A stretch of DNA of 64,000 nucleotides from IMG/VR virus record IMGVR_UViG_3300042905_005483, positions 37,536 through 101,535 of that record. One strand, written 5' to 3'. The notes below the pieces were generated by a model. That model saw only the letters and a program-made list of their open reading frames with translations. It searched no databases and was not told the origin of the DNA. The position numbers and the translations under genes are program-made. Source of the stretch: a virus. Of the stretch, positions 32,822 to 57,977 are shown in pieces. How positions within the stretch are numbered: position 1 is the stretch's first letter; each line of letters begins with the position of its first letter.

Positions 32822-34732
32822 CTAATTTACAGTGTTTTGGCTGTCTATCCTAGTTGTTGCCGGATTCCAGCCGCTTGTGGGGCCAGAAAGCCCGAATTGT
32901 TCGCCGCGGGCAAGGGCCGGCACATAACTACTGCCGCTTGTGTCGCTTTTTAGTCCCCGGTGCACGCTGTTTAAGAATCCGCGTTCTTGGTAGGAGCCAA
33001 GCATGCGCGTCATCCAGTCCGGGTCGTTGGAAATGTTCGCCATGCCGCGGACCATTTCTGGCTGGAACGGCGGCGGGTTTCTGTGGGCCTGCACGTTGTT
33101 AATTCCGTAGCGGCTCATATTGTCAATTACGCCCTTACCAATCTTTGTGCCGACCGAGTAGTGCAGCACCGGTTTTTCCAAGTAATGCCCCTTTAACGAA
33201 GAGGGCGCGCCAGAGACAGCGCCTTCTCTCGGCTGCCAGTCGCGCTCTAACGTCGAATACGGCACGACGTCATCTGGGGCGTAACTGCCGTATTCGTCAG
33301 TTAACCGCACATGATTGATCAGCCCGCGGGCCACCAGTTCGATGTTTCGTCGGTGCGGTGTAATGCCGCTATTTTTTAACACGTCACGCATGGCGCCCAC
33401 GAAGTACCGACGCCCCTCGCCGACGCCTTTATGCCGTACGACCTCAGACGGGTTGGGCATGCCGTCCGAAAGCACGTCGCCGGCTTCGATCGGGTCGCCC
33501 TTTTTGACAGACACGTTTTGATCGGCGCGGATGTAATGATCTTCTCCGTCAACGCGCACGTAAAAGCCGCCCTGAGCCGCGGGGCGTACTTCTTGAACCG
33601 CTCCGTCGCGCTGCGCGTGTGTCGCGCCGTCAGGATAAGTTTTGGGAACCTGCACCAGCGCGTTAATAGCTTTGAAGCCGCCAATGGCCCGCGCGCCACC
33701 AACACCGCCGGAGTGCTTTGACGACAATTGCGACTGCGACACCGGCTCGCTTAACGCTTGGGCGGCGGCAATACCGACATAGTCGCCAATTGGAGGAATG
33801 CGGCCCTTTTCGCGGTAGCCGACGTCCTTACCGAACACGCCGCCATCGCCGGGGCCGCCGACCAATGGACTACGAACAAGGATGTCCTTTACGCCCATCT
33901 GTTTCAGGTCTTTTAGGATTTTTGGCGTCAGCACTGTATTTCGTTTATAGGGGCCCGCACCGCGGGCAAGAAGCGCGCCCTCATTGTCGGCGTCATCGAC
34001 ATCGGTTGGGAACCCTCTGACTTCTAAAGCGTCCTTGTGCGCGTCGTCGTCTTCGTCGTCAGCCGTCACCAGTAATCGGTGCGCCATTTGCGTCAATTGC
34101 TTGCCGTAGAACCCGGCGTCAGCCGTGGCTGTCTTCGTGTCAATTAGACCCTTGCGGGCGCCGAAGGCGCCCGCGAAATATTCTGCGGGTGTAAGACCCC
34201 TACCATAGTTGTTAAGAACGGGGATCGGAATCGGCTCGTCCTTGTGGTCGACGTAAAGCATGTCGGCGCCAATAAGTGAGCTAAGACTGTACTTATTGCC
34301 GCGAATAGCCGATTTGACTTGGGTCGCGAGCGGGTTGTCTTGATCTTGCGCCTCGTTAAAAACTTCTTCAAGCAGCTTGTTTTGCGTGTTCGCCGCCAGC
34401 TGGAGGATTTTTAAGTTGCGGTCTTTTTCAGACAAGCCCGGCGTGGCCATAATGCCGCGAAGCTGCTTTCGCACTTCCAGCTTAGCCCGCTGACCGGCGA
34501 GCGTTTGTTTGATGTCTCGCAGGGAGAACGTCAAACCGCCTGTTGAGTAGGAGGCGTCTCGCCCAACATCGAACAGCTTCTTGGTAACTTCGCGGTACTG
34601 TTCGGGATAATTCTTGGCGAGCTCGGTCGATAACGAGCTCAGCGTCTTCTTATCCATGACGCGATTGTAGTCCCGCATCTCCTGCGGTAGCGCGTCGTTG
34701 ATCATGATTTGCCCGAGTGTCGTTTTCAGCAT
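32822..34732 (-). CDS. RNA polymerase beta-prime subunit, C-terminal half
   Basis: Conserved beta-prime regions are readable in order. TTLGQIMINDALP (4-16) and GGLTFSLRDIK (65-75) come first. The bridge-helix/trigger region (about 155-215) is GRGLTPAEYFAGAFGARKGL then TKTATADAGFYG. ILVRSPLV (284-291) follows, then VGIAAAQALSEP (319-330). The zinc-binding cysteines that normally follow RSPL are absent. It supplies the second half of the active-centre subunit that elsewhere is one chain. The split point is close to that between rpoC1 and rpoC2 of cyanobacteria and plastids. Two short genes separate it from the beta/beta-prime-N gene. AGGTG precedes ATG. Confidence 0.88.
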   Translation of the reverse strand: MLKTTLGQIMINDALPQEMRDYNRVMDKKTLSSLSTELAKNYPEQYREVTKKLFDVGRDASYSTGGLTFSLRDIKQTLAGQRAKLEVRKQLRGIMATPGLSEKDRNLKILQLAANTQNKLLEEVFNEAQDQDNPLATQVKSAIRGNKYSLSSLIGADMLYVDHKDEPIPIPVLNNYGRGLTPAEYFAGAFGARKGLIDTKTATADAGFYGKQLTQMAHRLLVTADDEDDDAHKDALEVRGFPTDVDDADNEGALLARGAGPYKRNTVLTPKILKDLKQMGVKDILVRSPLVGGPGDGGVFGKDVGYREKGRIPPIGDYVGIAAAQALSEPVSQSQLSSKHSGGVGGARAIGGFKAINALVQVPKTYPDGATHAQRDGAVQEVRPAAQGGFYVRVDGEDHYIRADQNVSVKKGDPIEAGDVLSDGMPNPSEVVRHKGVGEGRRYFVGAMRDVLKNSGITPHRRNIELVARGLINHVRLTDEYGSYAPDDVVPYSTLERDWQPREGAVSGAPSSLKGHYLEKPVLHYSVGTKIGKGVIDNMSRYGINNVQAHRNPPPFQPEMVRGMANISNDPDWMTRMLGSYQERGFLNSVHRGLKSDTSGSSYVPALARGEQFGLSGPTSGWNPATTRIDSQNTVN

Positions 34733-35694: not shown

Positions 35695-38600
35695 TCAGTC
35701 TTTATCTTCCACGATGTGTACCGGCGTGTCCACATCAATTTCGCCGGCACGATACGCGCGGACGGCGTCTTTCTTATTTCGGTAAACACGGGGCTTAGCT
35801 TTAGAGTTAATGCGACTCGACGCGAGATAGATGCCTGTGTGGTAATCCATCGTCGGCATGTAGTGCGCCTTGAAAGAAGCCGCCGCAAACAGATTTTTGC
35901 TGGGCAGCATTTTCTCAATTGCCTCTTTGGCCGCCTCTTCGGTACTGGGGACGTGATACTGCATCGCGTCACCGTCGAAGTCGGCGTTAAAGCCCTTGGT
36001 GATGACCGGATTGACCTCCATAACCTTGTTTTTCGTAAGCCGGGGGTAGAAGGCCATCATACCATATCGGTGTAAAACCGGGGCACGATTAATAACAATC
36101 GGCCGCGAATTCATTTGTTTATGCATCTCGTCGAACGCGATCTTGTTTTTGTCTTCAACGGACTGGAGCGCGGTCATCCGGGGCATACCGCGACGCACAA
36201 GGCCGCGGACAATAAACGGTTTGTAAATATCCCACGCCTTTTCTTCCGGCAGGGCAACCTCGTCCATGTCTAGGTCGGAGTTGGGGGTAATCACCGCCCG
36301 GCCGACAAGGTCTACCGTGCTTGACAGCAGTTTGCGCTGCATGGTGCCGAACTTGGGGCTGTCGCCGAATATCTTGCGTAAATAACCCCGGACGTTCTTT
36401 TCGACGTGTTTGGGGTTTACAGGGTCGCCGAGGCCCGTAACGCCTTTCATGGCGTCGTACAGGGCCAAGCGCTCGTTGCCTACGTTACCGAGCACGCCGG
36501 TAGCTTCTTTAAGCACTGAGTTAGATTCAAGCAGTTCTTTGTAGAGATAATTGGCGTCGTCGATCAGCTGCATCTTTTTGGAGCCGATTTGCGACACCGG
36601 CCGGAACATTGGCGGCAGGACCGGCATTTTGGTCAGCATCCAGTCTTTTGGATGAACACCCGTGGTTTCAGAGCCCTTCAAGAACCCGAGCCGGCGGACA
36701 GCGGCGTCACGCAGTGTTTTGCGCCCAGACTGGATATCCTGCCGAGCCTGCTCAATAGCTTTCGGTACGTTGATGTTTTCGAGCGCCGTACGAATAGCCG
36801 CCGGGCCTGTCTTGTCGTAAAGCTTTTCTTCGCCGGCCAGCACGCCGCGGAATTCCTTTTCTGTAAGGCCCAGCACGCGGCGAATGGGCTCTTCCATCAC
36901 AGGATTGGGCATCGGCTCGTGGAGCGTGACTTTTGACCATCGCGTGCCGTTGTGGCCGCCGGTGAGCTTTTCGTCAAACAGGCCGCCCTGCTTCGGCTTT
37001 AAGTTACCTTTCCAGTCCACGGTCTCAGTGTTCTGGATTTCTCGGTCGCCGGCCAGCTCATCGATGTCTTTATCGGTGAGGGCCATGATATTAACCTTGG
37101 AGCCGGACTTTACCGTGTTAACGCCAGCGCCACGCAGTTGACTGACAAACTTCTCGTAGACGTGCGGGACCTTGGGCAGCGGCGGGTCATAGCCAGCCAT
37201 GAACTGCGCCCAATACTCCGGATTAGCTTGGCCGCGCACCATCTTGGCGTCGCGGATAACTTTTCCGGCACCGTGGCTTAACAGCGCGCCAAGATCGAGC
37301 ATGCCGACGCGCTTGGCGCCTTCGGAACCGCCCTTGGCCGGCGTGCCTTCAGCTGTGTAACTGCCCGTAGACCGCCCCTGACCCTTTGATTCAGCCGTAT
37401 GGTGGAGCTTCATGTAGAACCGGGAGCCCGTCAGCACGCCCCGAATCTTTCTACCAGTCTCCGGGTCTGTCAAGTCTTCTGTGTCTGACAGCCCGTGCTT
37501 GGCTAACTCTCCCTGCGCAAAGTCAACGAGGTCTGTGTCCTGATCGAAATCTTTGACCTTATATGCTTTACCCGTCTTGGCTGAAATCTTACCCAGCGCA
37601 GCCTCGATAACCTGAGACGGATTTACGCGGCTGATTAAACCCAGCGGGCTAACCAGCACCTCCATCGCACGCCCGTCGGCGTCTTGGGGCATCTGATGAT
37701 CCGGGACTATCTCAGCCACAACGCCTTTATCGCCAAATCGCCCAGAAAGCTTGTCGCCGACTTCCATCGGCGATTGCGCTTTTACTACTACGTTCACACC
37801 GTTTTTTGTTACGCCAACGTCCGTGACTACGCCGGGAGAATGATGGTCCCACGTAATCGTCTCGTTAGCGAAGCTGCCAGCGCGGCCTCGGTGTACTTTG
37901 CCGTACACCGCTTCGCGCTTCTTGGCCATTAACACCAGCGGGTCGCCGAAATTGACGACTTGGCCTTTTTTCACTGCGCCGTTGTCGTCAAAGCGCTCCA
38001 GCATCTTTTTGTCGTAAACGCCCGGGAACAAACTCACAAACGCCCGCTTGCCGACATGCGTGTTGTCGTCAAACTCGACTTCGTTCTGATACATGTGCTC
38101 GCTGGTCAGGCGCTTGGCGGCTGATTCGCTGATAACCACGCCGTCTTCATAGTTACGGCCGCGGAAAGGGACATACCCGACGCGAAGATTTAAACCCAGC
38201 GCCGTCGTGCCGTTTTTATCGGTAAAGTTCGACGTGGCGAGTAATTGCCCGGGCGTAATCTGATCTCCGGGCTGCACAGTCGGCCTTTGCGTCCACAACG
38301 TCTTGCGATTAAACGGCATGTCGTTGTAAAGCTCGATAGACTGTCGTTTGCCGTCTGCGCCTTTAATGATGATCTCGTCGGGGGTCACTTTCTCGACAAT
38401 TCCGGGCGCGGAGGCTTTTACGGCACCAAGATGCTCGCCCATCTTGTCTTCATAAGAAATATTCGGGTCGTCGCTCGTTGCTGACTGCACAAACGGCGAT
38501 TCAGCGTTTACTAGGGGCAGTGCCTGCGTAAACATGCGGCTACCCATGATGACGCGCTGGCCCTTAGACATCGACTTCATCGGCACCATGTTTGAAAGCA

Positions 38601-40098
38601 TGGAGAGTGAGTTGTCCATGCTCGGCAACATGAACTGCGCGTCTTTCTTAGGCACGTATTTAATTTTGCCGTTCTGCAAAGCGGCTACCATGGGCAGGTC
38701 GCTGCGCTCTTCGCCCGGAAATACCAGCGGCGTGTCGGCTAGTTCTTGCGGCGTCTTGTAGACCGTGTCGCCGGTGTGAACGTTTTTTACCGGCACCACG
38801 AACGTATGAATATTTGTCGGGCTTTTTCGGGCACCGGCGGCAAACCGCATATCGACGCCAACTTTGCCGGACTCTGGCGTACGCAAATAGTCGATAAAAC
38901 CGAAATGACTCGGTTGCACGCTGCGGGACTCGGCGGGAATGGCGTCGATCGAACCGATGCCGCCTTCGCCTAGGCGCGTTACACGAGTCTGGTGATCAAA
39001 GATTTCTGCCGGATTGATTTCTTCCAGCGACGAACCAAGACCCGAGCCAATCAGGGCGGCGTTAATGCCTTTGTTGAACACGCCCGACGGAATGTGATCC
39101 AGCGACTTTTTCGCGGTTGCTTTCCAGAGTAACTGCCGTAATCCAGTTTTGTCTTTTACGAAACGCTCAGCGATTAAATCTTCGGGGCCATAAACCTGCT
39201 GGAACGCCATGCTGTCGCGGTCGTCGGAATCAGCCTCCTTCCGATTCACCGCGATCAGCTTTTTCGTTATGTCCATGATCGTTTCCGGAGTCAGCTGCTT
39301 GTACGGCTTTCCGAGCGTTCTTTTTGTCACTTCCTCGTCGAACTCCGTCTTCGCGAACTCCTGCGCTATCTCCTTGATCTTTCCCAGCTCGTCGATCCCC
39401 GGTTTCGGCTTGTACACTAGGCGCTGGTACAACTTGTCGATCGTCCCCGCGTCCCCCTTCTCCATGTTCGCGGCTGTGATCTCGTTCCCCCACGCTGACC
39501 GGATGTCGTTGTCCCGCATCCCCATCGCTTTTAACAACGGCATGACCGGAATCTGCGCTTGGCCGATCTGTATCTTGAACACCCCCGTCTTTGGGTCCAG
39601 ATAATAGCGGTGCGACCGGCCTTTGCCCGGTAACGCATTCACGTGGGCTTCCAGCTCCCCGTTTTCTTTCTCGCGTGTGAAGATACCGGGACGCAGCCTC
39701 AGTTGGTGCGCCAGCGTGTACTCCACCCCCCGATTGACGAACGTACCGGCGTCCGTTAGGTACGGCACGTTGGCAATCGTAGCGGCCCTCGTCGCAACAG
39801 GCTTCTGTGTCTTGTTGTCCAGCAGAGTCCATGTGCCCCTCATTTTTCTGTGCAGCGAGCCGTGCGTCAAAATAGCGTTCTTCTGGTCGGCTTTAGTAAA
39901 CCGCTCAGGCCCGTCGTAAGTGACGTCGGATAGTCGCAGCGTATAAAGATCGTTTTGCATCGGCTCGATACTTTGAGCGCTCTGCAAAGCGTTGTTAAAA
40001 ATATTGTCTCGAAGTGCCGGTACGTCGCCGAATGCCCGGTACTGCGCAGGTTGTGGTGCCGGCGGCTGTAAACCGGATGACGGCAAAATGCTCGGCAT
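35695..40098 (-). CDS. RNA polymerase beta / beta-prime N-terminal fusion protein
   Basis: Residues 1 to about 1005 are beta: YLTDAGTFVNRGVEYTLAHQ, GRNYEDGVVISESAA, SPMEVGDKLSGRFGDKGVVA, EVLVSPLGLISRVNPSQVIE, then the Arg-Ser-Thr-Gly motif (GRSTGSYT). From about 1017 the frame continues as beta-prime: TVDWKGNLKPKQGGLFDEKL, VLPPMFRPVSQ, VDLVGRAVITP, VINRAPVLHRYG, and the catalytic magnesium loop NADFDGD at 1371-1377. It ends some 90 residues later. The remaining half of beta-prime is at 32822..34732. The first zinc cluster of beta-prime is absent. The gene sits among structural genes, so it may be packaged in the virion. Catalytic residues are intact. Confidence 0.92.
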   Translation of the reverse strand: MPSILPSSGLQPPAPQPAQYRAFGDVPALRDNIFNNALQSAQSIEPMQNDLYTLRLSDVTYDGPERFTKADQKNAILTHGSLHRKMRGTWTLLDNKTQKPVATRAATIANVPYLTDAGTFVNRGVEYTLAHQLRLRPGIFTREKENGELEAHVNALPGKGRSHRYYLDPKTGVFKIQIGQAQIPVMPLLKAMGMRDNDIRSAWGNEITAANMEKGDAGTIDKLYQRLVYKPKPGIDELGKIKEIAQEFAKTEFDEEVTKRTLGKPYKQLTPETIMDITKKLIAVNRKEADSDDRDSMAFQQVYGPEDLIAERFVKDKTGLRQLLWKATAKKSLDHIPSGVFNKGINAALIGSGLGSSLEEINPAEIFDHQTRVTRLGEGGIGSIDAIPAESRSVQPSHFGFIDYLRTPESGKVGVDMRFAAGARKSPTNIHTFVVPVKNVHTGDTVYKTPQELADTPLVFPGEERSDLPMVAALQNGKIKYVPKKDAQFMLPSMDNSLSMLSNMVPMKSMSKGQRVIMGSRMFTQALPLVNAESPFVQSATSDDPNISYEDKMGEHLGAVKASAPGIVEKVTPDEIIIKGADGKRQSIELYNDMPFNRKTLWTQRPTVQPGDQITPGQLLATSNFTDKNGTTALGLNLRVGYVPFRGRNYEDGVVISESAAKRLTSEHMYQNEVEFDDNTHVGKRAFVSLFPGVYDKKMLERFDDNGAVKKGQVVNFGDPLVLMAKKREAVYGKVHRGRAGSFANETITWDHHSPGVVTDVGVTKNGVNVVVKAQSPMEVGDKLSGRFGDKGVVAEIVPDHQMPQDADGRAMEVLVSPLGLISRVNPSQVIEAALGKISAKTGKAYKVKDFDQDTDLVDFAQGELAKHGLSDTEDLTDPETGRKIRGVLTGSRFYMKLHHTAESKGQGRSTGSYTAEGTPAKGGSEGAKRVGMLDLGALLSHGAGKVIRDAKMVRGQANPEYWAQFMAGYDPPLPKVPHVYEKFVSQLRGAGVNTVKSGSKVNIMALTDKDIDELAGDREIQNTETVDWKGNLKPKQGGLFDEKLTGGHNGTRWSKVTLHEPMPNPVMEEPIRRVLGLTEKEFRGVLAGEEKLYDKTGPAAIRTALENINVPKAIEQARQDIQSGRKTLRDAAVRRLGFLKGSETTGVHPKDWMLTKMPVLPPMFRPVSQIGSKKMQLIDDANYLYKELLESNSVLKEATGVLGNVGNERLALYDAMKGVTGLGDPVNPKHVEKNVRGYLRKIFGDSPKFGTMQRKLLSSTVDLVGRAVITPNSDLDMDEVALPEEKAWDIYKPFIVRGLVRRGMPRMTALQSVEDKNKIAFDEMHKQMNSRPIVINRAPVLHRYGMMAFYPRLTKNKVMEVNPVITKGFNADFDGDAMQYHVPSTEEAAKEAIEKMLPSKNLFAAASFKAHYMPTMDYHTGIYLASSRINSKAKPRVYRNKKDAVRAYRAGEIDVDTPVHIVEDKD

Positions 40099-42634: not shown

Positions 42635-43669
42635 CTAGATATTGCCGAGCGCGCCAAAATGCTTCAGTTTCTTCGGCGGGAAACCGTTAACGCCAGAAAA
42701 CGCAATGGCTGTCCGGTTGCTAATGTCCGACCACCTCGCCCAGAACGAGCCCACAGGAATACTGAACCGCGTGCCGCGAATCTTCCGCGGGCCGTTATTC
42801 CAATCACCCCAGCTGTTTTGAACTAATACGAGCGGCCCGCCGTAAATTTTCTTGGTGTCGTCACGGTCGTCGACGCCGAGATAGGCGAGCGCGTGCGCCC
42901 AACCACGCGGTGTTCTCTTTGATACGCCGTTTTCATCGCGCTCTTCCGAGAACGACTCGCCGCCGCATGACGAAATGCAGTAACCGTTTGTTAATAGGTC
43001 GCGCACTTCCTCAAAGCTACTGGCTTCGGTCGCGGTGCGGATAAGGTGCTCCCGCCCAATTTTAAGCCACGCTTCAGGCGGTGTTCTTGACCCGTACAAG
43101 CCGGCATTGCGCGAACTGTATGTGGTGAAGTCGACGTCGATCTCGTCGTATTTCTTACGCAGCCACAAGCCGCTTTCTTTTAACACGACATTAGCCGCGG
43201 CCTGACAGCTCCAGCCGTCGCCCCCATGGCGGCGCCAATTGTAAATGGCTTCTGTGCTGAGCACGCCATTTACGCGCGCAGCTTCGCTTACTTCAGGCGC
43301 GCCTTCAAGCTTTCCGGTTACGTCGTCAGGAATGCCGCTGTTGATCTCGCAGCACATGGTGCCGAGGCCCGCATTGCGCGTCGACCAACTTACGCAGTCA
43401 CCACGGCCTTGAGCACCGCCGGGAAGAGAGTCTGGATAGAGTTCAAGAATCTCCAGCACGGGCAAACTTAATTTGCCCGCGCCAGATTCTTGCAAACCGT
43501 ACTGCGTGCAAGCGTCGGCCCCATTTGGGGTACCGCCCGACGACTTAATGTAGTCGCGCAGGGCGGTACCCGCTTCTGGGTCAGCGTAGGCGCCGACAAA
43601 ACCAGTCTCATAGGCTTTTACAACGTCAAAGACGCTGGAAAACATTACTTCGCGGTCATTTGCAGCCAT
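42635..43669 (-). CDS. Papain-like cysteine protease (C1 fold), 344 aa
   Basis: The papain catalytic layout is visible: GRGDCVSWSTRN with Cys92, GWAHALAYLGVDD with His259, and VLVQNSWGDWNNG with Asn285 in the classical NSWG context. An oxyanion Gln is not obvious. The N-terminal 90 residues could be a propeptide or adaptor. There is no signal peptide. Phages rarely encode C1 peptidases. A virion or host-protein-processing role is possible. AGGTG is upstream. Family assignment is from the triad order and NSWG motif. Confidence 0.7.
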   Translation of the reverse strand: MAANDREVMFSSVFDVVKAYETGFVGAYADPEAGTALRDYIKSSGGTPNGADACTQYGLQESGAGKLSLPVLEILELYPDSLPGGAQGRGDCVSWSTRNAGLGTMCCEINSGIPDDVTGKLEGAPEVSEAARVNGVLSTEAIYNWRRHGGDGWSCQAAANVVLKESGLWLRKKYDEIDVDFTTYSSRNAGLYGSRTPPEAWLKIGREHLIRTATEASSFEEVRDLLTNGYCISSCGGESFSEERDENGVSKRTPRGWAHALAYLGVDDRDDTKKIYGGPLVLVQNSWGDWNNGPRKIRGTRFSIPVGSFWARWSDISNRTAIAFSGVNGFPPKKLKHFGALGNI

Positions 43670-43690: not shown

Positions 43691-44224
43691 TCAGCTGTTC
43701 TCTTCGCTGTCAGGCGTTACTTCCGGCGTTACTTCCGGCTCAACAACTTCGGGCGCGTCGGGGGTGACGAACGTTTCGCCAACAACCGTGACGCTGAGTC
43801 CGCCCGGAACTGCAGGGGGAACAACGTCTAGCGCTTGAAAGCTAACGGTAGCCGGTTCAGACCGATTACCGCTGTCGTCAACGTCGACGAGCGATACAAC
43901 AACATTCGAATCTTGCGGCGCGCTTACTTGGCCGAGATTCACTTCATACGCCGGAAAAACTACAGGATCACGATACACGCCATCAACAACCACAGTCATT
44001 TCGCGGCTTACGACGTCATTCGCGGCCGGAGCAGCGACGGTGATTTCATAGGTCATGGTATCAGCCATAGCTTCATCATCCCTTTCTATCTGTCGAACAG
44101 ATAAACCCTGTGGTGACGAAATCACCACACTCTTCGCACGCGCCAGCGCCGCAACCGATTTGATTACGACTAACAACCAGAGCGCGCCTAACAAACTAAT
44201 CGCTACTAGTTCTATAAAAGTCAT
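43691..44224 (-). CDS. Membrane-anchored protein with fibronectin-like domain
   Basis: Residues 3-28 form a single transmembrane segment (ELVAISLLGALWLLVVIKSV). After a linker, residues 55-145 read as an Ig/fibronectin-like beta-sandwich (YEITVAAPAAND; VVVSLVDVDDSGNRSEPATV). The tail is Pro/Glu/Val repeats (EVVEPEVTPEVTPDSEE). It overlaps the upstream stop as ATGA. A second start with an AAGGG site occurs at the beginning of the beta domain (MADTMTYEI), so a soluble form could also be made. Function unknown. Confidence 0.5.
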   Translation of the reverse strand: MTFIELVAISLLGALWLLVVIKSVAALARAKSVVISSPQGLSVRQIERDDEAMADTMTYEITVAAPAANDVVSREMTVVVDGVYRDPVVFPAYEVNLGQVSAPQDSNVVVSLVDVDDSGNRSEPATVSFQALDVVPPAVPGGLSVTVVGETFVTPDAPEVVEPEVTPEVTPDSEENS

Positions 44225-44670
44225 TTTGTTTGCGCGGATACTATTACGGTTTCGCAGGCTTTTACAAGATTGGACACGATTTGCGGTGTGGCGGCGACGA
44301 CATCGTCAGTGCCAACAACCTTTTTGAATACGTTGTCGATTGCCACGTCTAGTCCGGGATACTTGCCGACTTCGCTAATAGCCAGCTGCAACGTGTTAGC
44401 ATGCAGTTCGGCCAGCTTTTCGGTGTTCGATACGCGCACGCCTTTGTCTCGCATCAGCACGGTGCGAAGGCCGCTGTATACGCCGACAATCCGCGCACGG
44501 TCTGTCGCCGGTGCTTTGCGCAGCAGCGAAACAATTACGTCGTCCGGAAACGCAGTGATGACGTCTTCAGGCTGCACAACGGCTGGCCGTGTCGGGAGTG
44601 AGACCCCATTCGGAAATGCGAATGAAAACAGGACTAAGCTGACCGCGAGTAACGCTACTAGTTTTTTCAT
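44221..44670 (-). CDS. Secreted or periplasmic small protein, 149 aa
   Basis: ATG 44670 begins a textbook signal peptide (MKKLVALLAVSLVLFSFAFP). A TTG start eight codons earlier is less likely. The mature part is helical (AFPDDVIVSLLRKAPATDRA; KLAELHANTLQLAISEVG). It ends in VIVSAQTK, and the small protein at 49291..49464 ends in VVVSAQTK, with similar DNA over about 28 bases. No catalytic motif is seen. It lies in a cluster of membrane and secreted small proteins that may serve lysis or envelope alteration. Confidence 0.6.
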   Translation of the reverse strand: MKKLVALLAVSLVLFSFAFPNGVSLPTRPAVVQPEDVITAFPDDVIVSLLRKAPATDRARIVGVYSGLRTVLMRDKGVRVSNTEKLAELHANTLQLAISEVGKYPGLDVAIDNVFKKVVGTDDVVAATPQIVSNLVKACETVIVSAQTK

Positions 44671-45007: not shown

Positions 45008-45826
45008 TCACGTTTGGGGTATCAACAGATAAGGGCGGCCATTAATTGTAATAGTGCCGTTCACTTCTATAACAGCGTCTTTTATCGCGCTATAGGGCGC
45101 CTTCCGCGAACCATATAATTTAACAATTTCTTCGACGTCTCCGGCTTGCGGCGCGGTGACGTTCGGGTCGTAATACGGCGCCATGAGGTTGCCCCAACTT
45201 AAATGCGGTAAACCAAGCGCGTGACCGAGTTCATGACAAATAACCGCGATTGCCATGTTAAACGACCAATCTTCTGCTTCGTCGAACATTTGGTCGAGCT
45301 GAATGGTCTCGTGCACACCGCACGGCAGTTCACTCCACGCTAATGTGCCGCCAGAACCGTCTAGTTGGTGTTTCTTACCGCTGCCTGAACGCGCATAAAT
45401 GTTAGCTTTGTTGGGGGCGTCTACGCGGGTAGGCTCAAGGTCGCATACGGCAGCCCACTGAGAAAAAGCGATGTCATACGCCTGCGCAATCTGCTCGTTG
45501 GATAAACCCGGAAGCGCGATGTCGTGATGGTACGTGATTTTCTTCATCGGCCATTTGCACACGCTGCTCGGGTCCGTCAGATTAAAGTCTGGAAGGCCGC
45601 AGCGGCGTTTCTTGATGCGGTGCGCCGTAACCTCATTCACGCAACCGCACTCATTAATGCCGTTAAATTTCTGGTACGCGCACACGGCGTCTTTTAAAGC
45701 TTTGCCGCGGATGCTTTTCACTTGCGCCCACGTCTTGCCGCCGAAATAGCCGTAGTCGTACAAAAATTTCAATACTTCATTTGTCGGCAGTACGTCTTTC
45801 GTACGGCCTGTTGTTTTTTTCGCCAT
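45008..45826 (-). CDS. Matrixin metalloprotease with cysteine switch
   Basis: ATG 45826 (MAKKTTGRTK) has AGGTG upstream. Residues 10-70 resemble a peptidoglycan-binding-type helical prodomain (LKFLYDYGYFGG...LKDAVCAYQKFNG). RRCGLPDF (74-81) is nearly identical to the PRCGxPD cysteine switch of matrix metalloproteases, whose Cys blocks the catalytic zinc until removed. The catalytic domain has HELGHALGLPH (His198, Glu199, His202, His208) and a Met-turn (LMAP, Met215). The fold is M10 matrixin with its prodomain. A C-terminal beta tail (EVNGTITINGRPYLLI) may anchor it. The substrate is unknown; virion processing or host surface are options. Confidence 0.85.
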   Translation of the reverse strand: MAKKTTGRTKDVLPTNEVLKFLYDYGYFGGKTWAQVKSIRGKALKDAVCAYQKFNGINECGCVNEVTAHRIKKRRCGLPDFNLTDPSSVCKWPMKKITYHHDIALPGLSNEQIAQAYDIAFSQWAAVCDLEPTRVDAPNKANIYARSGSGKKHQLDGSGGTLAWSELPCGVHETIQLDQMFDEAEDWSFNMAIAVICHELGHALGLPHLSWGNLMAPYYDPNVTAPQAGDVEEIVKLYGSRKAPYSAIKDAVIEVNGTITINGRPYLLIPQT

Positions 45827-45833
45827 GTGGCAC

Positions 45834-46256
45834 CTATACGGTTTTGGCGACCGCAACAAACTCTTGCGCTGTTTCTGCGGTCATTTTGTTAGATATTGTT
45901 CGCAACGCGCCGAGTAAAGGATTAGGCGCCGTTGCAGAGATATTTCGATTGCGGCAGTATTCAACCCACGCCTTATCCACCCGGCGGCGTAATACAATCG
46001 TCCGGCGCAGCGGCAATTTGTCGAGCCCGGTTAACGCCGCCACAATAACGTCGTCCGTCTGCTTGTTGCGCTCTTGGCAGAATCGGACGACTTGAATAAT
46101 TACCGAAATCAACATCAGAATTAAAAACGGATCAATGCCGATGTTGTTTTCACCCATTTCATCGGCAATCGATTTTTCTAATTCGTTTACGACAGCGGAC
46201 AAAGCCGGAGAGCTGTTAATTGCCTGCTCCAGTTTGTCCATGTCAATTGATTTCAT
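45834..46256 (-). CDS. Small membrane protein, 140 aa
   Basis: The N-terminal 40 residues are acidic and helical. One transmembrane segment follows (IDPFLILMLISVIIQVVRF), then a basic helical domain (LPLRRTIVLRRRVDKAWVEY). It is translationally coupled (ATGA) to the gene upstream, which is also a membrane protein. The two probably work together. The family is unknown to me. Confidence 0.55.
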   Translation of the reverse strand: MKSIDMDKLEQAINSSPALSAVVNELEKSIADEMGENNIGIDPFLILMLISVIIQVVRFCQERNKQTDDVIVAALTGLDKLPLRRTIVLRRRVDKAWVEYCRNRNISATAPNPLLGALRTISNKMTAETAQEFVAVAKTV

Positions 46257-46621
46257 TTTTGTGTGCTCGCTAAACGCATGCGCTCTACTGTGACCGCTTC
46301 AATCATCCGGTAACGAGATGCCAGCATTTGAGACCGCAGCTGCTGCCGACCAGAAAGATACTTCCACACAAGCAGTGCGTTCACAACCACAACTTCGGTG
46401 GCGGTAATGATGCCAGTCAAAGACTTGCTGAGTTCTTGCACGTCAGACGCGTTTACAAAACCGAGCAATACGCCGACGGTCAGTACGTTCGTCACTACGG
46501 CAACAGCCATAGTCCAGAATTCGGGTGTTAACCACTTCTCGACAAGGTACTTCTCGTCTACGCCCATCGCGGCGTTCATTTCACGAAATTCAGCGACGAC
46601 TGGCAGTTCTTTTGATTCCAT
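46253..46621 (-). CDS. Two-span membrane protein (holin-like topology)
   Basis: Segments 33-55 (FWTMAVAVVTNVLTVGVLLG) and 68-90 (LTGIITATEVVVVNALLVW) are hydrophobic. An acidic N-terminus and a basic C-terminus (RYRMIEAVTVERMRLAS) flank them. Size and topology fit a class II holin, but another holin-like gene is at 49430. AGGAAA precedes ATG. Lysis function is inferred only. Confidence 0.5.
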   Translation of the reverse strand: MESKELPVVAEFREMNAAMGVDEKYLVEKWLTPEFWTMAVAVVTNVLTVGVLLGFVNASDVQELSKSLTGIITATEVVVVNALLVWKYLSGRQQLRSQMLASRYRMIEAVTVERMRLASTQK

Positions 46622-50663: not shown

Positions 50664-51698
50664 TCAAAGAACTTTTGCGGCGATTAGACAGCCGCGAGCA
50701 ACAGCGTGCAGCGGGTCTTTGGCGTGACGCACTTCGCTGACTGGGAGCGGAAACTCATTGTCAGCAAGTTTCTTCTGAAACAGCGCAACAAAACCCGCCG
50801 CCTGTGATGTTCCGCCGGCAATGACAACCGGCAGCGGATTCTTGAACTTCGGCAACAGCTTGTGGCCCGTCATAGCAGCGGCAAGATTCTTTGTTGTGTA
50901 ATCGATCAGGCGCTCGTAGTAGCTCGACACAGCCGCCAAAATTGGATTGTCATTCTGTTCGCCAATCACAAACTCGCCGTTCTCTTTTTCAGCCTGCACC
51001 ACGCTATCTGGTTCGCCAACGGCTACAGCGGTCATGCGATCAATCCAGTCGCCGGACTTTGTGGTGCTGAACATCACCGTAGGCTCGCCGTTGAGCATAA
51101 CGCAGCAGTTCACCATGCCGGCGCCACAGGAAAGCGCTACGCCGGTGTAATCGTCGCTCTCTAGCTCCGAGTAGCACAGCGCTTCGGCCTCATTGATGGC
51201 TCGCGCGCTGTAGCCGCATTCAGCCAAAATAGTCCGGACCACGTCTTCGTGGTAGCCGACGTCAAAGTCGTCGTCGTCTTGGTCTACAGGCTGCGCTGGA
51301 ATGCAGAACACGAGCTTCTCATTTGGCTCGTCGGCCTTGCCACAAACTTGTTTCAGAATGTAGGCGAGTACGCGCTTCGCTTCTTTTTCTTTGCTCGACA
51401 CGACGCCGCGGTACATCGGACGCTTGGCGGAGTCGTTGCGCTCGACAGCTTTCTCAATAGCGTCTTGGCCCAGAATGATAAACGTGCCGTCGGCGTCTTT
51501 GACAAAGACTTTGCCCTGCAGGCCCTTTTCGATCATTTTCGTGGCTACAGGGGTCGTAGGCTTAATGACGTAGAACGCGTCCCGGAACTCTTTGTACTGA
51601 ACGTAGTCAAACGTCTCGTCACCCGTGAAACTCGCGGGGGCAGAAGAGTTCGCGGCAAGAACAATAAACGAGGTACCGACGTCGAGTCCTTTGGCCAT
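50664..51698 (-). CDS. Actin-like ATPase (ParM/MreB/Hsp70 fold)
   Basis: Actin-fold nucleotide motifs occur in order: phosphate-1 GLDVGTSFIVLA (residues 4-15), connect-1 region EAEALCYSEL, phosphate-2 VALSCGAGMVNCCVML, and adenosine motif VVIAGGTSQAAGF near 300. Length (344 aa) suits ParM-type or phage actin homologues, which polymerise to position DNA or replication compartments. AAAGGG precedes ATG. A small membrane protein is immediately upstream (two bases apart) and might anchor it. No tubulin-like PhuZ is in the window. The function in DNA positioning is inferred. Confidence 0.75.
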   Translation of the reverse strand: MAKGLDVGTSFIVLAANSSAPASFTGDETFDYVQYKEFRDAFYVIKPTTPVATKMIEKGLQGKVFVKDADGTFIILGQDAIEKAVERNDSAKRPMYRGVVSSKEKEAKRVLAYILKQVCGKADEPNEKLVFCIPAQPVDQDDDDFDVGYHEDVVRTILAECGYSARAINEAEALCYSELESDDYTGVALSCGAGMVNCCVMLNGEPTVMFSTTKSGDWIDRMTAVAVGEPDSVVQAEKENGEFVIGEQNDNPILAAVSSYYERLIDYTTKNLAAAMTGHKLLPKFKNPLPVVIAGGTSQAAGFVALFQKKLADNEFPLPVSEVRHAKDPLHAVARGCLIAAKVL

Positions 51699-53829: not shown

Positions 53830-54315
53830 TTATTCCTTGGCGGTCGACGTGTTGAGCGCCCGGAAAGCGTGTGCCAGAGTATCGCCTAAAATCTGCCGAA
53901 TACGTTCACAGTCTTCGTAGCTATCTTGCAGCTGATCTTCGTAAAAAATACGAAGGTACGTCGCTTCAACGGGATTGTTGATCATCAGGGCGTCAAGTTG
54001 TGCGAGCCGCGTGGCGTAGTTCTTGATAACTTCTTCTTCTAGCTTTAAAGCTTCGCCTAGTGCCGTTTCAGTATTCCGACACAGCGGAAACTGTTTGCCG
54101 CTGGAATTTGGCAGATTAAAGTGCAGCCCAAACAGCCGATCTAGAAACTGCTGGACATGCTGCATTTCTCCCTTAGCAGATTCCGAGAAAAACTCTCGAT
54201 ATTCGGCGGCGTGGATGCCGATTACAGACGACGCGTGATAAAGATAGAACTGCAGATGCGTCCACTCGTTCTGTAGGTCCGCGTTCATTAATTGCAAAAA
54301 GTCGCTGAGCGTCAT
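53830..54315 (-). CDS. Ferritin-like (four-helix, diiron type) protein, 161 aa
   Basis: The four-helix pattern with iron ligands is visible: helix 1 Glu17 (LQNEWTHLQFYLYHAS), helix 2 E50-x2-H53 (KGEMQHVQQFLDRLFG), helix 3 Glu93-95 (KLEEEVIKNYATRL), helix 4 E126-x-x-x-x-D131 (IFYEDQLQDSYEDCERI). The order ExxH...Ex6Y...E matches ferritin-like or bacterioferritin proteins storing or oxidising iron. Length suits the family. AAGGAC precedes ATG. Phage ferritins are uncommon. The protein might protect DNA or act in virion assembly; iron role is inferred from ligands. Confidence 0.7.
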   Translation of the reverse strand: MTLSDFLQLMNADLQNEWTHLQFYLYHASSVIGIHAAEYREFFSESAKGEMQHVQQFLDRLFGLHFNLPNSSGKQFPLCRNTETALGEALKLEEEVIKNYATRLAQLDALMINNPVEATYLRIFYEDQLQDSYEDCERIRQILGDTLAHAFRALNTSTAKE

Positions 54316-57308: not shown

Positions 57309-57977
57309 ATGTTGAAAATCTTGACTTACGTCACAAATGCTGATCATTCAAACTTACGGCAGTTACGGCAGAAACTCCCGATTGAGTTTGTGCCTAATCT
57401 TATTGCGTGGACCGGGAGCTTTTACGCCAAAGCCTTCGGCGTCCACGAGTTTGTCAAATCACTGCCGGACGACGACATCATTGTGTTGTTAGATGGCTAC
57501 GACGTTTTGCCATTCAATGGGTGCACGGCAGAAACACTGCGCGACGCCGTAGAGACGCACTTTGATTTAGACAAAGTCACGTTCAATGCCGAGACAAACT
57601 GTTTTCCGGCCGCAGAGCTTGCCCAAAAGTATCCCAAAGCGCCCGGTAAGTGGCGTTATCTCAATGCTGGGCTTTATGCCGGTAAAGTCAGCGCGGTCAA
57701 ACGCATGTACGACGAGATGCTCGAAGACATCGTACGGGTCGGCGACGACCAGCACGCGCTGTCGTTGCTGTTCTTATCGCAGCCGGGTTTACTCGCGCTA
57801 GACTACGAGTGTCGGGTGTTTCAGTCGTTGTACAACGGTAGCGTCGGCGCTGGCGTTAATATGCCAGACTTCGTGATCGACGGCACGACCATTCGTAACA
57901 AACAGTTCGACACGACGCCGCTGCTGTTTCACGGAAACGGTTTAATCAACATGGCGAGTCTTATGCCGTGTTTTTAA
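57309..57977 (+). CDS. PLOD-type (procollagen) glycosyltransferase, 222 aa
   Basis: This is the only plus-strand gene. It has the small glycosyltransferase domain of PLOD/LH3 and GT25-like collagen enzymes: IIVLLDGYDVLPF (Asp-x-x-Asp metal motif), TFNAETNCFPAAELA, WRYLNAGLYAG, DDQHALSLLF, LLFHGNG. These domains transfer Glc or Gal to hydroxylysine or similar acceptors. A collagen-like protein occurs at 21712..22125, which may be a substrate, though over 35 kb away. GAAAG precedes ATG weakly. The reversed strand and divergent promoter suggest independent acquisition. Confidence 0.75.
   Translation: MLKILTYVTNADHSNLRQLRQKLPIEFVPNLIAWTGSFYAKAFGVHEFVKSLPDDDIIVLLDGYDVLPFNGCTAETLRDAVETHFDLDKVTFNAETNCFPAAELAQKYPKAPGKWRYLNAGLYAGKVSAVKRMYDEMLEDIVRVGDDQHALSLLFLSQPGLLALDYECRVFQSLYNGSVGAGVNMPDFVIDGTTIRNKQFDTTPLLFHGNGLINMASLMPCF

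Follow-up and report, generated by a model that had tools for sequence, protein, structure and literature searches.

A clade of ~200-kb phages encodes a matrixin that very probably has the architecture of a pro-MMP-like zymogen, i.e., a prodomain that ends in a cysteine switch and precedes the catalytic domain, and this architecture is strongly conserved. We also consider it probable, with somewhat less confidence, that the enzyme is kept latent through this switch. So far, the MMP cysteine switch has been described mainly in animals and plants. Its complete and invariant presence across a widespread phage clade suggests, as far as sequence comparison can tell, that prokaryotic viruses use this form of latency, too. 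With 272 residues, the protein would also offer a minimal zymogen for testing cysteine-switch latency.

The gene was investigated within a window of 64,000 nucleotides (the whole stretch of DNA that was analysed), which is part of a 101,535-base IMG/VR virus record without family or genus. The features under discussion are collected in Table 1.

Table 1. Features of the pro-matrixin gene and its neighbours (window coordinates)
Feature	Coordinates	Strand	Remarks
Small protein, two predicted membrane segments	46253..46621	-	position -2; 4-base overlap with next gene; holin-like by anatomy only
140-aa protein, one predicted membrane segment	45834..46256	-	directly upstream of matrixin
Pro-matrixin gene	45008..45826	-	272 aa; ATG at 45826, stop ends at 45008; without signal peptide
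Prodomain, helical, PG_binding_1-like	45584..45793	-	residues 12-81; switch at its end; model superposes on proMMP prodomains
Cys76, switch cysteine of RRCGLPDF (residues 74-81)	45599..45601	-	invariant in 67/67 close relatives
Catalytic matrixin domain	45110..45556	-	residues 91-239; PF00413
Zinc motif HELGHALGLPH	45203..45235	-	residues 198-208
Met-turn Met215 (HELGHALGLPH...LMAPYY)	45182-45184	-	after zinc motif
C-terminal tail with conserved INGxPYxLxP	45011..45109	-	residues 240-272; low model confidence
91-aa protein, N-terminal membrane segment	44691..44966	-	directly downstream of matrixin
149-aa protein, signal-peptide-like N-terminus	44221..44670	-	
Candidate papain-like cysteine protease	42635..43669	-	motifs by eye: RGDCVSW, WAHALAYLG, QNSWG

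Domain architecture and predicted fold

Peptidase_M10 (PF00413) scores 70.8 bits on residues 91-239 compared to a curated cut-off of 24, and the match covers the full profile (positions 1-159 of 159). Together with the HExxHxxGxxH site and the Met-turn, this places the protein, as judged from its sequence, in the Pfam matrixin family PF00413. The first-pass annotation, which gave the position of the gene without its strand, had named a latency-type motif RRCGLPDF, HELGHALGLPH and a Met-turn; all three are present, on the minus strand. Its description of the motif as nearly PRCGxPD is accurate, i.e., the residue preceding RCGLPDF is variable among the close relatives introduced below, being arginine in the window and proline in 7/67, which thereby show the exact PRCGLPD. 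N-terminal to the catalytic domain, PG_binding_1 matches residues 20-67 with 18.8 bits, which is below its cut-off of 23. Within PDB sequences, phmmer aligned human proMMP-9 (5ue3) with residues 20-239 (E 2.4e-16), and the residue alignment sets the phage 'rcglpd' opposite 'RCGVPD' of proMMP-9.

The protein has the same elements in the same order as the vertebrate proMMP-1, -2, -3 and -9, i.e., prodomain, PRCGxPD switch, HExGHxxGxxH site and Met-turn, and it resembles them in fold, too. It differs from them in that it has neither a signal peptide (no hydrophobic stretch was read by eye in its N-terminus MAKKTTGRTKDVLPTNEV) nor a hemopexin domain, while it features extra invariant cysteines (90, 128, 169, 197) and a C-terminal tail of its own. 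A 21-row alignment of the clade shows these cysteines as well as the tail residues I261, N262, G263, P265, Y266, L268 and P270 to be invariant. The structural zinc site of vertebrate MMPs consists of three His and one Asp. When aligned to proMMP-9, the window protein reads LAW for LAH and QMFD for AHFD, and we take the replaced histidines to be those aligned with this structural zinc site. Column 164 of a wider, 74-row alignment holds W in 57/74 rows and His in none. Given the missing structural-zinc histidines, signal peptide and hemopexin domain, we file the phage protein as a matrixin (PF00413) zymogen working like a proMMP and not as a vertebrate-type MMP.

The structure was predicted by AlphaFold2 without templates, based on the 74 diverse rows (mean pLDDT 90.3, pTM 0.86). 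An alignment of 21 close relatives alone resulted in a pLDDT of 52, and that model was discarded. When comparing the model with the PDB, each of the 14 best rows covers the prodomain together with the catalytic domain of an MMP (MMP-1, -2, -3, -9 or -10), and mature enzymes rank below these. The rmsd among the top 14 rows is 2.2-3.0 A, except for one row (1l6j) with 5.3 A. Individual values are Z 25.5 for proMMP-2 (1eak_B; 2.5 A over 221 residues, covering model residues 12-243 in one superposition), Z 25.3 for proMMP-9 (5ue4_B; 2.2 A over 209 residues), Z 24.9 for proMMP-1 (1su3_A; 2.2 A over 206 residues) and Z 24.8 for proMMP-3 (1slm; 2.2 A over 210 residues). Foldseek also ranks proenzymes first, and its first 20 rows range from 2.6 to 4.1 A in rmsd.

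In the model, which is not wholly independent evidence because the training of AlphaFold2 included proMMP structures, the prodomain packs on the catalytic domain as it does in proenzyme structures. Since the whole chain superposes on proMMPs, the Cys76 loop is predicted to sit where theirs does, i.e., at the place where proMMPs hold the zinc-blocking cysteine (AlphaFold2 itself places no metal). A bond between the Cys76 sulphur and the catalytic zinc is implied by this superposition. The first-pass annotation had asked where structure prediction would put the cysteine: the modelled RRCGLPD loop is not far from the active site, and both domains superpose together on proMMP crystal structures.

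When searching predicted structures of viral proteins, A0A6J5RTD2 from an uncultured Caudovirales phage is the phage protein closest to the model. Its fold is similar (284 alignment columns, TM-score 0.66 by query), while its identity is 20% and its annotation is 'uncharacterised' and not that of a protease. Most other strong matches are insect-virus MMPs from granuloviruses, a nudivirus, ascoviruses, iridoviruses and entomopoxviruses. These are virus-encoded matrixins as well, found by fold, but they stem from eukaryotic viruses, and the best of them (Wiseana iridescent virus, G0T5G2) is 23% identical. The fold search also yields matrixin-like proteins of Lactobacillus phage 3-521 and Synechococcus phage P60.

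Among bacterial metalloproteases, karilysin of Tannerella forsythia, the structurally studied MMP, shares the matrixin catalytic fold with the model (4r3v, Z 21.1), while its short propeptide comes without a helical prodomain. According to the excerpted text of PMC8259862, karilysin's latency is achieved via an aspartate and not a cysteine. The same excerpts describe mirolysin, a bacterial metalloprotease of the pappalysin family (M43B), as having a cysteine-switch latency proven by mutation (PMC8259862); it belongs to a different metzincin family and has a short pro-segment, as stated in excerpts of PMC6949598.

Conservation and distribution of the switch

Relatives were collected by two IMG/VR scans with peptide patterns of which the switch is not a part. 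These resulted in 67 loci with the active-site motif, one of them (L054) truncated at its C-terminus, and one fragment (L031); identities of the relatives range from 56 to 100%. RCGLPDF is invariant in 67/67 relatives spanning the site. The set includes near-duplicates and comprises 46 distinct 80-residue contexts. As RCGLPDF is found in all 67 loci and is encoded by 41 distinct 21-mers (Cys codon TGC in 59, TGT in 8), a chance origin of the motif is excluded.

Based on 19 sequences, the mean pN is 0.051 for the switch (residues 74-81). All other regions compared are higher, with 0.159 in the catalytic domain, 0.247 in the C-terminal tail, 0.261 in residues 12-73 and 0.282 in the linker (82-90). 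The respective pS values are 0.64-0.74 over all regions, and 0.72-0.74 for switch, residues 12-73 and catalytic domain. That is, no other stretch of the protein is as constrained as the switch. The median dN/dS is 0.097 over the 103/171 pairs with unsaturated dS.

In the 74-row alignment, the Cys76 column holds Cys in 71/74 rows, or in 59/62 when excluding rows found only by Cys pattern; DNA-pattern scans that require the cysteine were not counted as evidence of conservation. H198, E199, H202 and H208 are found in 74/74 rows, most of which were chosen by that same motif, and Met215 in 69/74, with Leu in the remaining 5. The alignment was built without near-duplicates, same-contig loci, L254 (found by Cys pattern) and the 15 weakest matches (E 2e-6 or weaker, same-contig loci merged; L239-L243, L317-L321, L323, L325, L326, L328, L329). 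Among its distant rows that were not chosen by Cys pattern, the cysteine is found in 23/26 (missing in L228, L229, L236), and no switch was found in the 14 left-out weak matches inspected (all but L242).

The fused RNA polymerase gene was used as an independent probe and identified 67 loci. The matrixin is present in 58 of those, while three (L370, L372, L384) end too near the polymerase gene to tell. When restricted to a polymerase identity of at least 70%, it is found in 58/58 testable loci. Within 10 kb on either side, no matrixin was found at L395, L397 and L408 (polymerase 51-58% identical) or at L409, L410 and L417 (34%). The 11 longest records (194-205 kb) each show a single matrixin copy and no second. 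Since these records were picked through the matrixin, only 'one copy' counts here and 11/11 is not a prevalence result. The matrixin marks a clade of ~200-kb phages and has itself no match in the phage collection searched, i.e., tblastn found no match in 50,697 phage records (E 0.01), neither with the window matrixin nor with the distant L139 protein. Likewise, no paper on a bacteriophage cysteine-switch matrixin is among the matches listed for the open-access PMC literature.

Scanning 84,980 species genomes by pattern gave only three confirmed loci, all from Planctomycetota assemblies and 33-41% identical, which show RVCGVAD or HFCGVVE at the switch. At the first locus (G001), the 14 kb after the matrixin contain terminase, portal, capsid and tail-tube genes, which identifies the region, as judged by this gene content, as a prophage or phage-derived. 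A second Planctomycetota locus (L073) has the same local gene order. Within 392 sampled Planctomycetota genomes, 38 match at E 1e-5, where only G001 itself is strong (4.9e-47) and the next match is at 8.6e-13.

Matrixins encoded on Paenibacillus plasmids also have a prodomain before the matrixin domain, with PRCGLPDV in NZ_CP068596.1 and DRCGQPDT in NZ_CP145893.1. In contrast to the phage protein, to which they are ~28% identical, they have a long repeat C-terminus and retain the LAH histidine. With such a bacterial source of the architecture at hand, a transfer from animals need not be invoked.

The pro-MMP architecture is therefore not unique to this phage: it is clade-wide and recurs in distant phages and prophages as well as in the Paenibacillus plasmid matrixins. 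The first-pass annotation had claimed a full pro-MMP architecture in a phage and had named a loop far from the active site, or homologues generally without the cysteine, as results that would speak against it. Neither was found, so the claim stands with regard to order and fold of prodomain, switch and catalytic domain; it does not extend to the structural-zinc histidines, the signal peptide or uniqueness to this phage.

Some further observations concern the distant loci. The zinc motif HEIGHALGLPH is located inside tape-measure-like proteins of ~1,000-1,700 aa in L239, L240, L241, L317, L324, L326, L327 and L329 (L240 and L324 are the same contig, as are L241 and L327), and no switch cysteine was found in those proteins. 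In a distant phage (L306, 5977-7026), the matrixin seems to be C-terminally fused to a domain that looks, by eye, like the small ORF upstream of the L072/L073 prophage matrixins. Genes with a single CxxCH (429-754 aa, mostly plus a smaller one) are found 1-4 genes downstream of the matrixins of Planctomycetota prophages and several viral contigs (L072, L073, L124, L164, L212, L225, L227, L228, L238). One small CxxCH protein passes Pfam Cytochrome_CBB3. These loci place phage-borne c-type cytochromes beside a switch protease.

Gene neighbourhood and endolysin search

The gene context was compared in 30 clade loci, i.e., the window and 29/67 relatives, and the gene order is stable. The family at position -2 is found in 29/30 loci with two segments in 28/29, and the 140-aa protein family also in 29/30, at position -1 in all 29 and with one segment in 29/29. 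On the other side of the matrixin, the 91-aa protein occupies position +1 in 25/30 loci (N-terminal segment in 23/25) and the 149-aa protein position +2 in 23/30 (21/23), where all segments were called by hydropathy. Neither of the two upstream membrane proteins has a Pfam or PHROG match. In its layout, the block is similar to a phage lysis cassette in which the matrixin takes the endolysin position, as suggested by putative membrane proteins that are of fitting size and order but have no family match.

The candidate papain-like family is present in 30/30 loci, two to five genes after the matrixin. RGDCVSW is found in 30/30 and NSWG in 26/30, and C92, H259, Q284, N285, S286 and W287 are invariant in 9 aligned sequences. 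The papain-like label is based on these motifs, since searches of Pfam, PHROG and PDB sequences gave no match. The loci L395, L397 and L408 retain the papain-like gene (30-39% identical) without a matrixin, so it is not there only to activate the matrixin. This weakens the idea of the papain-like protease as a dedicated activator.

None of the 11 long relatives shows a match to Phage_lysozyme, Amidase_2, Peptidase_M15_4 or SLT at E 0.01. Peptidase_M23 shows matches below its cut-off in 11/11, in open frames of ~1,470 and ~640 residues, which fit the two RNA polymerase genes. No known muralytic domain was found in the matrixin protein (Pfam, E 0.01), where the matches besides the matrixin domain are sub-threshold ones of PG_binding_1 and Metallopep.

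The Pfam matches listed for the window proteins and 126 further ORFs of a relative (G395) contain no muralytic family either. The covered parts of G395 hold 149 ORFs of at least 90 aa, of which 126 were scanned and 23 short ones (<130 aa, some antisense) were dropped; the lists cover the best 25 of 35 Pfam families for one ORF set, and the best 25 of 60, 25 of 102 and 25 of 32 PHROG matches. The window was used for the matching part of G395, while bases 20,001 to ~23,200 and the last 110 were outside the scan. CHAP, NlpC, GH19 and GH108 are covered by this incomplete Pfam scan only.

Proposed role, alternatives and host hints

With regard to function, the reading that we favour, if tentatively, is that of a latent late lysis or envelope protease. 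The Cys76 thiolate would fill the fourth zinc position, so that the enzyme, having no signal peptide, would be synthesised in an inactive form in the reducing cytoplasm of the host, to act late as an envelope or lysis protease. The small membrane proteins encoded directly upstream would let it reach the envelope. Activation there might proceed by prodomain cleavage, for which the neighbouring papain-like protease would be the obvious candidate, or alternatively through the Cys-zinc bond being lost or oxidised. The active matrixin could then cut envelope, surface-layer or peptidoglycan-linked proteins and thereby help virions out. Since the matrixin is not muralytic, lysis would need another enzyme. 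The matrixin may work alongside a still unrecognised muralytic enzyme.

The conserved membrane-protein block with the papain-like gene, the absence of four endolysin families from the 11 long relatives and Listeria Mtz, the nearest precedent with experimental data, all lean towards such a late role. Against it count the membrane neighbours, which are without family match and whose segments are from hydropathy only. While the first-pass annotation had suggested either ejection or lysis as the point of activation, the gene context leans towards lysis. If the matrixin indeed times lysis, this would be a protease-based lysis control that would be missed by current endolysin searches.

Mtz, too, is a phage-derived metzincin. 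According to the excerpted text of PMC8235301, Mtz enhances phage lysis together with the lipoprotein Tim, its activity on Tim increases phage-mediated lysis, and prophage copies of Mtz-Tim are located downstream of holin and lysin genes. In contrast to the phage matrixin, Mtz is described as secreted and paired with a TIMP-like lipoprotein, where the comparison is by description and not by sequence (PMC8235301). The excerpted text makes no mention of a cysteine switch in Mtz.

Alternatively, the protease could be carried by the virion for entry. It would be latent in the particle, either in the tail or ejected with a virion RNA polymerase, be activated at the cell surface and cut surface-layer or envelope proteins. 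The fused RNA polymerase gene lies ~5 kb downstream of the matrixin gene, and the homologue of this polymerase in phage Arash, Gp206, is the most detected virion protein as reported in excerpts of PMC10585845. The distant contigs with the matrixin motif in tape-measure-sized proteins (L239-L241, L317, L324, L326, L327, L329) would fit as well. Nevertheless, we rate an entry role as rather unlikely, given that 0 of 20 gene families tested (matrixin and neighbours) have an Arash match and that a lysis block is the better fit to the small membrane neighbours. It is improbable that the matrixin processes proteins of the phage itself, e.g., collagen-like fibres or head proteins. While a 205-kb relative with 100% identical matrixin and RNA polymerase has genes for four long Gly-X-Y proteins and a procollagen-type glycosyltransferase gene is located in the window, the latter is found in only 1/11 long relatives, all 11 of which have the matrixin. 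Furthermore, relatives with a 51-58% identical RNA polymerase do without a matrixin in that region, so it is no long-standing component of morphogenesis. A 'matrix toolkit' of matrixin, collagen-like proteins and glycosyltransferase was dropped due to the same 1/11 and survives only as part of this alternative.

The three distant rows without the cysteine (L228, L229, L236) and the weaker inspected matches without a switch count against a latent zymogen. The former would be expected if the cysteine were no switch, i.e., if the prodomain were a folding or wall-binding module of an enzyme that is active as made, and the below-cut-off resemblance of the prodomain to PG_binding_1 points the same way. 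We consider this quite improbable, since no stretch of the protein is more constrained than the switch, which is invariant in 67/67 close relatives and takes the proMMP arrangement in the model. Least probable of all is a secreted or released public-good protease that would degrade extracellular or biofilm protein, and not the host envelope, to free progeny phage: homology to extracellular-matrix proteases would suit it, as might activation on release through a cysteine switch, but there is no signal peptide and the context is not specific.

The late lysis or envelope reading can be extended to a more specific scenario, which we regard as distinctly unlikely although a little less so than own-protein processing. 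Here, the ~200-kb phages would lyse their host by a two-protease zymogen system that replaces a recognised endolysin. The switch matrixin would be held in the reducing cytoplasm and released by the papain-like protease and/or an oxidising envelope, with a protein-rich envelope such as that of Planctomycetota as target. The switch matrixins of Planctomycetota prophages and phages, several of them beside c-type cytochrome genes, would then represent variations on this system.

When comparing 20 kb of the window with the 392 Planctomycetota genomes, 207/392 match at E 0.01 or better. Among the matches listed, most are on tRNA-Asn, the actin-like gene and the RNA polymerase, with a few short ones (34-44 bases, 84-91%) elsewhere, and none was identified as a CRISPR spacer. 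The actin-like gene (50664-51698, minus strand) encodes a volactin-family actin homologue (E 5.5e-61), and similar proteins are found in two uncultured huge phages. Assigning a host by this volactin-like protein, which is found in 51/149 Planctomycetota genomes, fails as Planctomycetota is the sole phylum searched.

The multi-subunit RNA polymerase genes are located at 35695-40098 and 32822-34732 (minus strand), with Salmonella phage Arash and Vibrio phages D69, D148 and D181 as the closest phage records (31-32% identity). In L336, L337, L338, L402, L408 and L415, the polymerase match is ~1 kb longer, which suggests an inserted element, e.g., an intron or intein. The procollagen-type (PLOD/LH3) glycosyltransferase (57309-57977, plus strand) matches PF25342 with E 4.1e-23, and its best PDB matches are R699 (9dyt, E 3.6e-18) and human LH3; the collagen/glycosyltransferase observation also touches L356, L359 and L360 (relative G395). 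PEP-CTERM is a signal known from bacteria with exosortases. A phage protein of L408 (6045-6509) ends in a PEP-CTERM-like tail (VPEPSTFLLFAIGLVFVLVARRIHR), which is a hint to the host of the distant relatives. Finally, the window proteins include a ferritin-like domain (Pfam, E 2.5e-9), which probably belongs to 53830-54315 (minus strand) as assigned from the ORF sequence.
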